From positions 620,001 through 684,000 of the forward strand of contig NZ_JAAKGS010000002.1 in the NCBI RefSeq assembly GCF_011043555.1: a stretch of DNA of 64,000 bases. The letters are read 5' to 3'. This document shows positions 30,201 through 46,115 of the stretch, in pieces; positions within the stretch are counted from its first letter, which is position 1, and each line of letters opens with the position of its first letter. Source of the stretch: Sphingobacterium sp. SGR-19. Its GTDB lineage: Bacteria > Bacteroidota > Bacteroidia > Sphingobacteriales > Sphingobacteriaceae. Both the position numbers and the translations under genes were made by a program. The notes under the pieces were generated by a model that searched no databases, was not told the DNA's origin, and worked only from the letters and a program-made list of their open reading frames with translations.

Positions 30201-30209
30201 TGTGGAAAA
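30201..30209 (-). promoter_or_regulatory. DnaA-box-like 9-mer upstream of mraZ
   Basis: TTTTCCACA on the minus strand (TGTGGAAAA on plus) fits the relaxed DnaA box TTWTNCACA. The same 9-mer occurs three times upstream of ftsZ. Confidence 0.35.
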
Positions 30210-30226: not shown

Positions 30227-30251
30227 GTGGGAGAAAGTGGGGGAAAGTGTA
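30227..30251 (+). promoter_or_regulatory. MraZ operator: 10-bp direct repeats
   Basis: GTGGGAGAAA (30227-30236) and GTGGGGGAAA (30237-30246) are followed by a degenerate GTGTA in the same phase. This gives TGGGN with 5-nt spacers, the known E. coli MraZ site, and also AAAGTG[G/T] twice, the site described for Mollicutes MraZ. It lies about 40-60 nt before the mraZ start and implies autorepression of the dcw cluster. A -7-like TACTTTTA follows at 30252-30259. With the aspS leader and promoter, this accounts for the 29888-30288 stretch. Confidence 0.75.
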
Positions 30252-39586: not shown

Positions 39587-40696
39587 ATGGGATACAAAGT
39601 AATCATAAGCGGAGGGGGTACAGGCGGACATGTCTTTCCAGCTATTGCGATAGCGAATGCGTTACGTCGTATAGAACCGGAAATCGAAATTTTATTTGTC
39701 GGTGCGAATGGACGAATGGAGATGGAACGTGTACCGGAAGCCGGTTACGAGATTATCGGGTTAGATATACAAGGTATTGATAGAAGTTCTTTGTGGAAAA
39801 ATTTAGCATTACCTTTCAAGTTAATAGGCAGTTTCATGAAAGCGCGGAAAATTATAAGAGATTTTGAGGCTGATGTGGCTGTGGGCGTTGGTGGGTTTGC
39901 GTCCGGACCTTTGTTAATGGCAGCTAACGATAGGGGGTTACCTACGTTGATCCAAGAACAAAACTCGTATGCAGGTGTAACCAATAAAGGTCTGGGAAAG
40001 AAAGCGAAAAAGATATGTGTAGCATACGAGGGTATGGATAAGTTCTTTCCGGCAGAAAAAATAATTTTAACCGGCAATCCTATACGTCGCGATTCGGTCG
40101 CTATTGAAGGAAAGCGAGAATTTGCGCTGCAAATTTTTGGTTTGCAGCCGCATAAAAAGACCGTGTTGATTATAGGTGGTAGTTTGGGAGCAAAGCAGGT
40201 GAATGGTTATGTACTGGACGTAATACACGAACTGGGTGAAAAGGATGACGTGCAATTTATCTGGCAAACGGGAAAGACCTATTACGAGGATATGGAACGT
40301 ATGCTCAAGCTAGATCAGTTGATTCCCGGTAATGTAAAGGTTTTTCCGTTTCTAGAACGCATGGATTTAGCCTATGCGGCGGCAGATTTAATTATTTCGA
40401 GAGCGGGTGCCGGAACGATATCGGAACTTTGTGTAGTAGGAAAACCGCTGATATTGATCCCATCACCCAATGTTGCAGAAGATCACCAAACGAAAAATGC
40501 GCAGGCTTTGGTTGCAAAAAATGCAGCTGTAATGATCTCGGAAGCAGATGCTCGGGGTACAATGATGTATGTGGCGTTGGAGTTACTTGCTGATGAGGCT
40601 AAATGTGCATCGTTAAGTACAGAGATAAAAAAGATGGCCATGCCGGATGCGGATGAAGTGATAGCAAGAGAAGTATTGAAATTATTAAATAGATGA
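39587..40696 (+). CDS. murG: UDP-GlcNAc:lipid I GlcNAc transferase (MurG)
   Basis: 369 aa GT28 glycosyltransferase. N-terminal G-G-G-T-G-G-H-V-F-P-A-I-A-I-A (acceptor side), inner V-G-V-G-G-F-A-S-G-P, and C-terminal donor-binding S-R-A-G-A-G-T-I-S-E-L. Peripheral inner-membrane enzyme that converts lipid I to lipid II. Its stop overlaps the murC start by 4 nt (ATGA), so the pair is translationally coupled. Confidence 0.96.
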   Translation: MGYKVIISGGGTGGHVFPAIAIANALRRIEPEIEILFVGANGRMEMERVPEAGYEIIGLDIQGIDRSSLWKNLALPFKLIGSFMKARKIIRDFEADVAVGVGGFASGPLLMAANDRGLPTLIQEQNSYAGVTNKGLGKKAKKICVAYEGMDKFFPAEKIILTGNPIRRDSVAIEGKREFALQIFGLQPHKKTVLIIGGSLGAKQVNGYVLDVIHELGEKDDVQFIWQTGKTYYEDMERMLKLDQLIPGNVKVFPFLERMDLAYAAADLIISRAGAGTISELCVVGKPLILIPSPNVAEDHQTKNAQALVAKNAAVMISEADARGTMMYVALELLADEAKCASLSTEIKKMAMPDADEVIAREVLKLLNR

Positions 40697-42871: not shown

Positions 42872-42910
42872 ATAATATTGAAATATACAGCAACAAATAC
42901 ACAGCATATT

Positions 42911-44272
42911 ATGAAACCAAGATTAGCAGAAAACGAAAAAGATAGTCCAATCATCGTGGGATTGGATATCGGAACAACGAAGATTTGTGTTACGGTCGGT
43001 CGTCGTAGCGGAGCCAACAAAATTGAACTCTTGGGTGTCGGGAAAGCCGAGTCCTCCGGTGTGAACCGCGGGGTAGTCGCGAACATCCAACGGACGGTAA
43101 GCAGTATTCGGGATGCTGTCTCGATAGCTGAATCGCAATCGAATGTCGACATTAAAGTTGTCAACGTTGGAATTGCAGGTCAGCATATTAAAAGCATTCA
43201 ACACCGCGGTATATTGACCAAGCGCGACTACGATGAGGTGACTCGTATTGACGTGGAGCAGTTAATTTCCGATATGTATAAGCTAGTACTCCCTCCAGGT
43301 GAGGAAATTATCCATGTATTGCCACAGGAATTCACCATCGATAACGAACCGGGCATTAAAGAGCCTATCGGTATGGCGGGACGTCGCGTGGAAGCTAATT
43401 TTCATATTATTTCGGGGCGTGTGACCGATATCAACAATATTAAACGTTGTGTAGATAATTCGGATTTGGAAATCTCTTCCCTAGTCTTGGAGCCTCTTGC
43501 ATCATCTGAAGCTGTGTTGGATGACGAGGAAAAAACTGCTGGTGTGGTGTTAGTGGATATTGGTGGCGGCACCACGGATGTGGCTATCTTTCATGAAGGT
43601 ATTATTCGTCATACGGCTGTTATCCCGTTAGGCGGCAATATCGTAACGGAGGATATCAAACAAGGTTGCTCCGTATTGCGAAACCAAGCGGAACAGTTGA
43701 AAGTTCGCTACGGTTCTGCTTTGGCGGATGAAAACAAGGATAATGAGGTGATCTGTGTGCCGGGCATCCGTGGACGCGAGGCTAAGGAAATCTCCGTAAA
43801 GAATTTAGCCTACATTATTCAGGCGCGGATGGAGGAAATCATCGAACATGTTTACTACGAGATTAAATCGTCCGGATACGAGGATAAACTGATTGCAGGG
43901 ATTGTGATCACAGGTGGCGGTGCCCAATTGAAGCATCTGGTGCAATTAGTGGAGTATATTACCGGTATCGGTTGTAGAATCGGTTATCCAAATGAATATC
44001 TAGCGAAAACGGAAATGCTAAACAGACAGGCTTTGGAAGAATTGAAAAGTCCGATGTATGCGACTTCCATTGGCCTGTTAATTAAAGGTGTGCAGGCTGT
44101 AGAAGAAGCGGAAGCAACCGAACAAGCGGTGGAGACATCAAGAAAAAGTGGAAAGGTAAAAGAAATCGCAGAGGAAAAGAATAAAAAGGAAAGTTGGTTT
44201 TCTAAGCTGTTATCCGATTTTATCAAGGATGATGCGGGAATTGACGACGATACGTTTATAGGAAGGAAATAA
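42911..44272 (+). CDS. ftsA: Cell division protein FtsA
   Basis: 453 aa from the ATG at 42911; a TTG at 42878 would start inside the ftsQ-ftsA gap and is not supported. Actin-like ATPase with phosphate-1 loop G-L-D-I-G-T-T-K near residue 20, V-D-I-G-G-G-T-T-D near residue 215 and I-V-I-T-G-G-G-A-Q. It anchors FtsZ to the inner membrane. The C-terminal tail is charged and ends in a possible amphipathic helix (W-F-S-K-L-L-S-D-F-I). Last gene before a promoter-bearing gap and ftsZ. Confidence 0.96.
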   Translation: MKPRLAENEKDSPIIVGLDIGTTKICVTVGRRSGANKIELLGVGKAESSGVNRGVVANIQRTVSSIRDAVSIAESQSNVDIKVVNVGIAGQHIKSIQHRGILTKRDYDEVTRIDVEQLISDMYKLVLPPGEEIIHVLPQEFTIDNEPGIKEPIGMAGRRVEANFHIISGRVTDINNIKRCVDNSDLEISSLVLEPLASSEAVLDDEEKTAGVVLVDIGGGTTDVAIFHEGIIRHTAVIPLGGNIVTEDIKQGCSVLRNQAEQLKVRYGSALADENKDNEVICVPGIRGREAKEISVKNLAYIIQARMEEIIEHVYYEIKSSGYEDKLIAGIVITGGGAQLKHLVQLVEYITGIGCRIGYPNEYLAKTEMLNRQALEELKSPMYATSIGLLIKGVQAVEEAEATEQAVETSRKSGKVKEIAEEKNKKESWFSKLLSDFIKDDAGIDDDTFIGRK

Positions 44273-44273
44273 G

Positions 44274-44319
44274 TTTTCCACAACAAGTCTTTTTTCCACA
44301 AATTCACAAATGTGGAAAA
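44274..44319. promoter_or_regulatory. Cluster of three DnaA-box-like 9-mers upstream of ftsZ
   Basis: TTTTCCACA occurs at 44274-44282 and 44292-44300 on plus, and as TGTGGAAAA at 44311-44319 (minus). Each fits the relaxed DnaA box TTWTNCACA. The outer two, with one more base, form the inverted repeat GTTTTCCACA / TGTGGAAAAC. The cluster lies just upstream of the candidate ftsZ -33 box. Confidence 0.5.
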
Positions 44320-44322
44320 CTG

Positions 44323-44351
44323 TTGTGAGGATTTTGGTATTATTACATTTG
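44323..44351 (+). promoter_or_regulatory. Promoter of ftsZ (-33 TTG / -7 TACATTTG)
   Basis: TTG at 44323-44325, an 18-nt spacer, and an exact TAnnTTTG at 44344-44351 in the 139-nt ftsA-ftsZ gap. The leader would be about 50 nt. Confidence 0.5.
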
Positions 44352-44411: not shown

Positions 44412-46115
44412 ATGTCGATACAATTTGAAATGTTAAAGGAACAATCATCAATAATTAAGGTTATTGGTGTTGGTGGTGGCGGTGGCAATGCCGTAAACCA
44501 CATGTACAAGCAAGGGATTAGTGGTGTAGACTTTATTGTTTGCAATACAGATGCGCAGGCATTGGAGTTGAGTCCTATTCCGAATAAGGTACAATTGGGA
44601 GCAAGTTTAACAGAGGGAATGGGCGCAGGAGCAGATCCTGATGTGGGTGAAAATTCAGCTATTGAAAGTATTGAGGATATCAAACGTATGTTAGGTACCA
44701 ATACGAAAATGCTTTTTATCACAGCAGGTATGGGCGGCGGTACAGGTACTGGAGCAAGCCCTGTATTAGCGAAAGCTGCGAAAGAGCTGGGTATCCTAAC
44801 TGTAGCTATTGTAACTACTCCGTTTACATTCGAAGGTAAACGACGTCGCTCACAGGCGGAAGAAGGCTTGTCGGAATTGCGTAAATATGTGGATTCCTAT
44901 TTAGTCATTTCCAACGACCGGTTGCGCGAAATATTCGGTAATTTAACTATGACTGCGGCTTTTGCGAAGGCTGACGATATCTTGACTACTGCTGCCAAAG
45001 GTATCGCGGAAATCATCACAATCCCGGGTTATGTAAATGTGGATTTTAAAGATGTGCGTACAGTAATGAACGATAGCGGTGTTGCCATTATGGGAAATGC
45101 TGTTTCTACAGGTGAGAACCGTGCTTTGGAAGCAGTAACCGGTGCATTGGCTTCTCCTTTGCTGAAGGACAATGAGATTGAAGGGGCGCGTTATATCCTA
45201 CTCAATATTACTTCTGGTAAGAAAGAGGTAACAATGGATGAGGTCGCTATTGTAACAGATTATATCCAAGAACAAGCGGGATTGTCGGCAGACCTAATTT
45301 GGGGTAACTGTATCGACGAGAGTTTGGAAGACGAGTTGTCGGTAACCATCATTGCCACAGGTTTCCAGACGGCGGAAGAGCGTGTCAAAGAAAAAGAAAA
45401 AGAAAAAATTGCGTTACCCTTAACACCAGAACCTGCAGCAAAACAATTTGTAAAACCAGTAGCTCAAAATCAATTTGTAAAGAAAGAAGAACCTGCGACT
45501 ACACAACAGACGTACATTAAACCTGTACAGGATACAGCCGAGAAGTCACCTTCTTTAGAAACTCCTGCAACTCCTCAAGGAGATCTGTTCACCTCTCCGA
45601 AACCGATTCATGCGGCAGTTGCAAAAAAAGAAGAACCGGAAGTTATTCGTCACACGCTGAGTTTAGAAGAACCAGAGCAAGAGGAGGCTCAAGAAGAGTC
45701 AGGTTTTGAGTTGAAGACATCACCTTCCATATTTGAATTTAAGTTACCTTCTGTATTCGATGTATACAGTAAGGAAACGTCTGATATAGAAAATACGGAA
45801 AAATCAGAAAATATAGCGAAAGAAGAACCTGTAGCACAAGTAGAATCTGCGCCTGAAAAGGAAATAGATTTTGAAGATCAGCTTATGAAAACGAAAGAAC
45901 GTATATTGCGTTTAAAAGAGTTGAGCATGAAGCTGAAATCTAGCAATGGCTTACAAGAATTGGAAAACGAACCGGCTTACAAACGTAGACAAAAATCGTT
46001 GGAAGATGTGCCGCATTCTTCACAATCGCAAGTCTCACGGTTTACATTGTCGTTTGATGACGGAGAGACCGAGATTCGGCCGAACAATTCATTTCTGCAT
46101 GATAATGTTGATTAA
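44412..46115 (+). CDS. ftsZ: Cell division protein FtsZ
   Basis: 567 aa tubulin-like GTPase. N-terminal G-G-G-G-G-N-A-V, the tubulin signature G-G-G-T-G-T-G-A-S-P near residue 108, T7-type N-x-D-F-K-D-V. The globular GTPase ends near residue 325. A very long, acidic, Pro/Glu/Lys-rich linker (about 330-545) follows, then a conserved C-terminal peptide (R-P-N-N-S-F-L-H-D-N-V-D), a Bacteroidota form. It forms the division ring. Standard bacterial FtsZ is about 380 aa; the extra length is all linker. Own candidate promoter upstream. Confidence 0.97.
   Translation: MSIQFEMLKEQSSIIKVIGVGGGGGNAVNHMYKQGISGVDFIVCNTDAQALELSPIPNKVQLGASLTEGMGAGADPDVGENSAIESIEDIKRMLGTNTKMLFITAGMGGGTGTGASPVLAKAAKELGILTVAIVTTPFTFEGKRRRSQAEEGLSELRKYVDSYLVISNDRLREIFGNLTMTAAFAKADDILTTAAKGIAEIITIPGYVNVDFKDVRTVMNDSGVAIMGNAVSTGENRALEAVTGALASPLLKDNEIEGARYILLNITSGKKEVTMDEVAIVTDYIQEQAGLSADLIWGNCIDESLEDELSVTIIATGFQTAEERVKEKEKEKIALPLTPEPAAKQFVKPVAQNQFVKKEEPATTQQTYIKPVQDTAEKSPSLETPATPQGDLFTSPKPIHAAVAKKEEPEVIRHTLSLEEPEQEEAQEESGFELKTSPSIFEFKLPSVFDVYSKETSDIENTEKSENIAKEEPVAQVESAPEKEIDFEDQLMKTKERILRLKELSMKLKSSNGLQELENEPAYKRRQKSLEDVPHSSQSQVSRFTLSFDDGETEIRPNNSFLHDNVD

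Follow-up and report, generated by a model that had tools for sequence, protein, structure and literature searches.

A candidate DnaA-binding array in the predicted ftsZ promoter of Sphingobacterium sp. SGR-19 and its conservation in the Sphingobacteriaceae

Introduction

The coupling of cell division to chromosome replication in bacteria is an open question. Among the closest described systems is the ftsZ promoter of Caulobacter crescentus, which the relevant passages of two publications describe as activated by DnaA (PMC8203912, PMC3193534). According to PMC8203912, Escherichia coli carries three DnaA boxes upstream of ftsZ and DnaA acts at the promoter of the division gene ftsL in Bacillus subtilis. 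Here we describe the intergenic region between ftsA and ftsZ in Sphingobacterium sp. SGR-19, which contains an array of four DnaA-box-like sites upstream of and overlapping the predicted ftsZ promoter. It thus resembles the C. crescentus promoter in its predicted DnaA boxes, E. coli in the position of the boxes upstream of ftsZ and B. subtilis in the predicted presence of DnaA at the promoter of a division gene. Among the titles and abstract beginnings listed for the open PMC literature, no account of a DnaA control of ftsZ in Bacteroidota was seen.

The window analysed is a stretch of 64,000 nucleotides (contig NZ_JAAKGS010000002.1, positions 620,001 to 684,000); all coordinates refer to it unless stated otherwise. 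Based on its letters, conservation and position, the segment 44274-44332 probably represents a DnaA-binding array within the ftsZ promoter by which DnaA would set the transcription of ftsZ.

Results and Discussion

The array between ftsA and ftsZ

The 139-bp gap between ftsA and ftsZ contains three exact copies of the 9-mer TTTTCCACA across 46 bp, starting at 44274 and 44292 on the forward and at 44311 on the reverse strand, as had been reported in the initial annotation. The features of the region are:

42878..44272, plus strand: ftsA (Pfam FtsA, 8.3e-43)
44274..44282, plus strand: box 1, outer box, TTTTCCACA (exact sequence match)
44292..44300, plus strand: box 2, inner box, TTTTCCACA (exact sequence match)
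44301..44310, no strand: 10-bp spacer between boxes 2 and 3 with a conserved TT[A/C]ACA core (here TTCACA, 44303-44308)
44311..44319, minus strand: box 3, inverted inner box, TTTTCCACA (exact sequence match)
44323..44325, plus strand: TTG, predicted -33 element of the Bacteroidota type
44324..44332, minus strand: position of box 4, degenerate here (5/9 letters), overlapping the -33 region
44338..44346, plus strand: conserved TAWTATTAC block, which runs on in the window as TACATTTG
44344..44351, plus strand: TACATTTG, predicted -7 element of the TAnnTTTG type
44412..46115, plus strand: ftsZ (Pfam Tubulin, 1.9e-47, plus FtsZ_C)

The array hence comprises four sites, three of them exact in this genome, with boxes 1 and 2 facing boxes 3 and 4. 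The spacers measure 9-10 bp between boxes 1 and 2, 10 or 11 bp between boxes 2 and 3 and 4 bp between boxes 3 and 4, corresponding to spacings of 18-19 bp, 19-20 bp (inverted) and 13 bp, respectively. The TT[A/C]ACA core beside box 2 is possibly an additional weak box. The TTG at 44323-44325 and TACATTTG at 44344-44351 are presumably the -33 and -7 elements of a Bacteroidota-type promoter. As noted previously, the boxes are not canonical: the gap of this genome lacks TTATCCACA, which in relatives substitutes for single boxes.

Clustering in the window and in the genome

The initial annotation had put the number of chance matches of TTWTNCACA in the window at about four, which proved too low: 8.2 are expected, 10 are present and 24 of 100 shuffles reach 10. 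Exact TTTTCCACA, by comparison, occurs six times against 0.99 expected, a number attained in none of 100 shuffles. Two of these copies, at 39792 and 41526 (both on the minus strand), lie within open reading frames and had been missed before; they were rejected as parts of a cluster-wide regulon, since the 9-mer is kept in only one of 13 aligned segments from relatives.

Genome-wide, TTTTCCACA as such is not over-represented, given 90 exact copies against 101 in the reversed-sequence control. Together with the 67 copies of TTATCCACA it forms 157 exact TTWTCCACA sites, among which groups of at least three within 600 bp were detected at two places only, the ftsZ array and the replication origin (oriC). 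When the 90 sites were placed at random, three starts within 37 bp were not obtained in 20,000 placements, so that the earlier description of a strong local cluster holds.

Conservation within the Sphingobacteriaceae

For the main conservation set 112 loci were fetched by ftsZ, independently of the motif. They comprised 104 distinct regions, or 103 after removal of one at a contig end (L030). An array was called when the inner inverted pair had at most four mismatches (zero in 78 of the 94 arrays called); locus L110, which passed this threshold by chance, was counted as lacking the array. On this basis 94 of the 103 family regions contain the array, comprising 52/52 in Sphingobacterium and 42/51 in other genera. 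The boxes are therefore retained in other Sphingobacteriaceae ftsA-ftsZ gaps, a check which the initial annotation had proposed. Outside the family, none of 20 genomes from nine families (f2-f10) contained it; 19 of these genomes share the class of the Sphingobacteriaceae and one belongs to a different class. A mixed set including motif-fetched loci yielded 124/133 and is biased upwards; recounting with the unselected regions left the argument unchanged. Shuffles of this mixed, partly motif-fetched set reached the array threshold in one of 500 cases. For the comparison of gaps across genera, 40 loci were picked by hand (g9 left out).

The strict inverted pair was detected in 75 of 151 family genomes (13/151 for the reversed-pattern control), as a single copy in each except G089 and G129, and for 74 of the 75 sites listed ftsZ follows at a distance of 70-210 bp. 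When named genomes were scanned for the pair, at least 80 loci (of 118 stretches) were returned. Among those listed, 39 precede ftsZ, and all of these carry the title Sphingobacterium, Pedobacter, Mucilaginibacter, Olivibacter, Parapedobacter, Desertivirga or Sphingobacteriales. The remaining 41 are located elsewhere and come from other taxa; many belong to a single metagenome-assembled genome (MAG) of the Acidimicrobiaceae. In this MAG (BP_115, JAUTXP01; L277, L283, L288 and others) TTTTCCACA-N10/11-TGTGGAAAA occurs in numerous scattered copies, which probably represent an unrelated repeat.

Within the 94 arrays column conservation is 0.99 for box 2 and 0.98 for box 3, compared with 0.44 for the 9 bp preceding box 2. 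Within the genus the 9 bp separating boxes 1 and 2 drift while the boxes are kept. The spacer between boxes 2 and 3 likewise keeps its TTAACA or TTCACA core, and ATTAC of the predicted promoter is found 31 bp from the start of box 3 in 86/94 arrays.

This distance bears on the suggestion that the array titrates or inactivates DnaA and lies at ftsZ incidentally. Loci such as datA and DARS titrate DnaA or change its nucleotide state, and a cluster of strong boxes away from oriC, packed more tightly than the cluster at oriC itself, would suit such a role. However, 86 of the 94 arrays keep the same distance to the -7 element, which fits a promoter control and is not predicted by titration. A datA- or DARS-like function therefore appears improbable.

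The inverted repeat could also act as an RNA hairpin or attenuator. The repeat folds with -19.1 kcal/mol (z -2.7), and only one of 200 shuffles is equally stable. In 16 of the 94 arrays, however, boxes 2 and 3 are unequal, none of these changes being compensated (17/125 in the mixed set, likewise without compensation), and no array has altered arms that still pair. Despite the stable single-sequence fold this explanation was dropped for lack of compensatory changes (0/16) and is hardly credible. A hairpin in the 5'-untranslated region downstream of the promoter was rejected too, as RNAalifold found no structure in 52 sequences.

Letters of the boxes

Box 1 reads TTTTCAACA in 37, TTTTCCACA in 36, TTATCAACA in 8 and TTATCCACA in 4 of the 94 unselected arrays, the rest being others. 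The inner boxes are far more uniform, with exact TTTTCCACA in 86/94 arrays for box 2 (34/42 in other genera) and in 82/94 for box 3. Their variants are chiefly TTATCCACA and TTTTCAACA, and the changes mostly match the DnaA pattern. Box 4 was read at a set offset from box 3, without choosing the register. It matches TTWTNCACA strictly in 3/52 arrays of the genus and in 31/42 arrays of other genera. In the latter, T1-T4, A7, C8 and A9 hardly vary (39 to 41 of 42), with position 5 being free (A17, C17, G4, T4; n=42); this column pattern is the DnaA pattern TTWTNCACA. Altogether, three or four strict boxes occur in 60/94 arrays (three in 53) and one or two in 34.

Replication origin and DnaA

The initial annotation had named as a possible refutation that the native DnaA box of this lineage, as seen at its oriC, might differ. 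The origin was located independently of the boxes by cumulative GC skew on contig C27. The minimum at 135,173 lies within the 489-bp gap between the divergent genes nadB and nadA (134,785-135,273 on this contig; 8786-9274 in L032). The distance from oriC to dnaA is 13 kb in this genome and about 1.5 Mb in G109. Among four other genera, the skew minimum was no more than some 150 bp away from the nadA start in three; in the fourth it was 40 kb off with a weak skew, the box cluster still being at nadA. The oriC of the Sphingobacteriaceae thus appears to adjoin nadB, usually within the gap that separates it from the divergent nadA, so that the analysis additionally places the origin for this family. 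In single-contig relatives, ftsZ and oriC are separated by about 21-28% of the chromosome, which places ftsZ mid-replichore (G006, G012, G016, G026, G028, G029, G087, G109; 44% in G004), according to coordinate arithmetic with nadA or the skew minimum taken as origin.

For Sphingobacterium, 17 oriC gaps were obtained from 29 loci; 12 loci without nadB in reach were skipped, and L271 was left out because of its broken nadA. TTTTCCACA is present in all 17 gaps (mean of 0.05 in the permuted-letter control) and is the commonest form with 29 of 51 TTWTNCACA boxes (6 in the reversed control). An unsupervised count of 9-mers likewise returned it as the top repeat (11/17 gaps). For Sphingobacterium the objection concerning the native box consequently fails. 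Of the 12 genus loci without adjacent nadB, one has a strict box at most 500 bp before nadA; in the two traced further nadA is displaced, and a box cluster bearing TTTTCCACA is found together with the skew minimum beside nadB.

In the survey of origin gaps 28 of 30 loci were usable, and 25 gaps of other genera were compared. They contain TTATCCACA (9), TTATTCACA (6), TTATTAACA (15) and TTTTCAACA (6); TTWTNCACA forms, mainly TTATCCACA and TTATTCACA, occur in 16/25. TTATTAACA possibly represents one inherited site since it occurs in one copy per gap. The commonest repeated 7-mers in these gaps are GTTAACA and ACTAACA (7/25 each), which are akin to the TTAACA core at ftsZ.

The DnaA protein of the host carries domain IV (Pfam Bac_DnaA_C, 4.4e-30). 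Its helix-turn-helix aligns with solved DnaA chains, and the box-reading stretch GGRDHSTVIYA is canonical and identical in 30/30 proteins. Upstream of dnaA, TTTTCCACA was detected in 4/4 Sphingobacterium and 3/3 g16 genomes, and TTWTNCACA counts in 30 genomes (two with 93 bp only) were 10 versus 4 in controls. The dnaA promoter was rejected as a family-wide DnaA target, the exact box being confined to these two groups.

The mraZ promoter

At the other end of the division cluster two features precede mraZ:

30201..30209, minus strand: single TTTTCCACA box, exact match, reading TGTGGAAAAC on the plus strand
30227..30249, plus strand: MraZ-type GTGGG repeats with a 10-bp period, a distinct motif

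The box at 30201 is the fourth copy already reported in the initial annotation. TGTGGAAAAC, within TGTGGAAAACTTTTT, is found upstream of mraZ in 30/30 members of the genus. TGT[G/T]GAAAAC occurs in 25/25 family regions with an identified mraZ start, from 26 newly read loci, where it is followed by a run of T and lies immediately 5' of the GTGGG repeats. This box may be a second candidate DnaA site or a separate portion of the mraZ operator.

Since mraZ is part of the same cluster and has GTGGG repeats similar to TGTGG, MraZ itself could be suspected to bind at ftsZ. However, GTGGG or CCCAC occurs in just one of the 94 unselected arrays (1/125 in the mixed set), and the array spacings of 18-19, 19-20 (inverted) and 13 bp contrast with the 10-bp direct period at mraZ. 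An MraZ operator in the ftsZ array, which is extremely improbable, was rejected on account of its motif and spacing.

A different transcription factor with TTTTCCACA as half-site might instead control the division cluster by binding the mraZ box as well as the array at ftsZ. This would account for the conserved mraZ motif (25/25 in the family, TGTGGAAAAC in 30/30 regions of the genus) and for the prevalence of TTTTCCACA in boxes 2 and 3 throughout the family, while the oriC of other genera uses different letters. On the other hand, TTTTCCACA is also the dominant oriC repeat in Sphingobacterium, and the ftsZ variants obey the DnaA pattern with position 5 free. Furthermore, the change from C to A at position 6 occurs at oriC as well as at ftsZ, which mildly favours a single protein. 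Such a factor seems unlikely, though less so than the other alternatives.

Proposed function of the array

The assignment to DnaA has to be weighed against several observations. The array is absent in 9/103 unselected family regions; it is lacking or partial in the regions read from g5, g8, g11, g23 and g24, in the single g3 region and in one member of g15. Four strict boxes occur in just 7/94 arrays, and A for C at position 6 departs from the strict consensus in roughly half of the copies of box 1 and 40% of those of box 4. In other genera, exact TTTTCCACA was found in none of the 25 oriC gaps, nine of which hold no strict TTWTNCACA at all, and unlike these origin boxes box 2 at ftsZ is exact TTTTCCACA in 34/42 arrays; the ftsZ and oriC boxes there are thus related but not identical despite the same DnaA stretch. 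Upstream of dnaA, TTTTCCACA is missing in 23 of the 30 genomes. Finally, the precedent of E. coli, with DnaA boxes upstream of ftsZ, is a negative one according to the passage concerned in PMC8203912.

We nevertheless consider DnaA the probable ligand and propose the following model. The inner inverted boxes 2 and 3 would be strong and the outer boxes 1 and 4 weaker, the whole lying immediately before the -33 element and extending over it. DnaA would bind these sites cooperatively, and ftsZ transcription would depend on its amount or ATP state, which would couple the division capacity to the replication cycle. Full occupancy may repress ftsZ, with release once active DnaA drops after initiation. 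Regarding the sign we lean slightly towards repression, since boxes 3 and 4 border on the -33 element or overlap it. Activation as in C. crescentus is almost equally likely, particularly in this genome with its degenerate box 4.

It is quite possible, although somewhat less likely than not, that DnaA acts at both ends of the cluster. The ftsZ array of four to five sites, counting a TTAACA-type weak site between the inverted pair, and the mraZ box would then form a hard-wired link between replication and division that evolved in the Sphingobacteriaceae. If so, the ftsZ array of several genera other than Sphingobacterium would hold stronger canonical boxes than their origin. A promoter-linked ftsZ array across most of a Bacteroidota family offers a clean system, contained in a stretch of 46 bp.

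Comparison with known systems

The mraZ operator, located in the same gene cluster and similar in its TGTGG-like letters, differs from the ftsZ array in consisting of direct GTGGG repeats with a 10-bp period, a motif (or its reverse complement CCCAC) seen in 1/94 ftsZ arrays. In B. subtilis, another gene (ftsL) in another phylum is concerned, and the passage in PMC8203912 reports DnaA binding in vivo by chromatin immunoprecipitation, whereas the array described here is known from its sequence. The E. coli boxes are situated within ftsQA according to the same source (PMC8203912); those of the Sphingobacteriaceae are intergenic, lie at a set distance from the predicted promoter and are conserved in most of the family. 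Compared with the two boxes given for the C. crescentus ftsZ promoter in the pertinent part of PMC3193534, the predicted array of the Sphingobacteriaceae belongs to another phylum and has four fixed positions built around a strong inverted pair.
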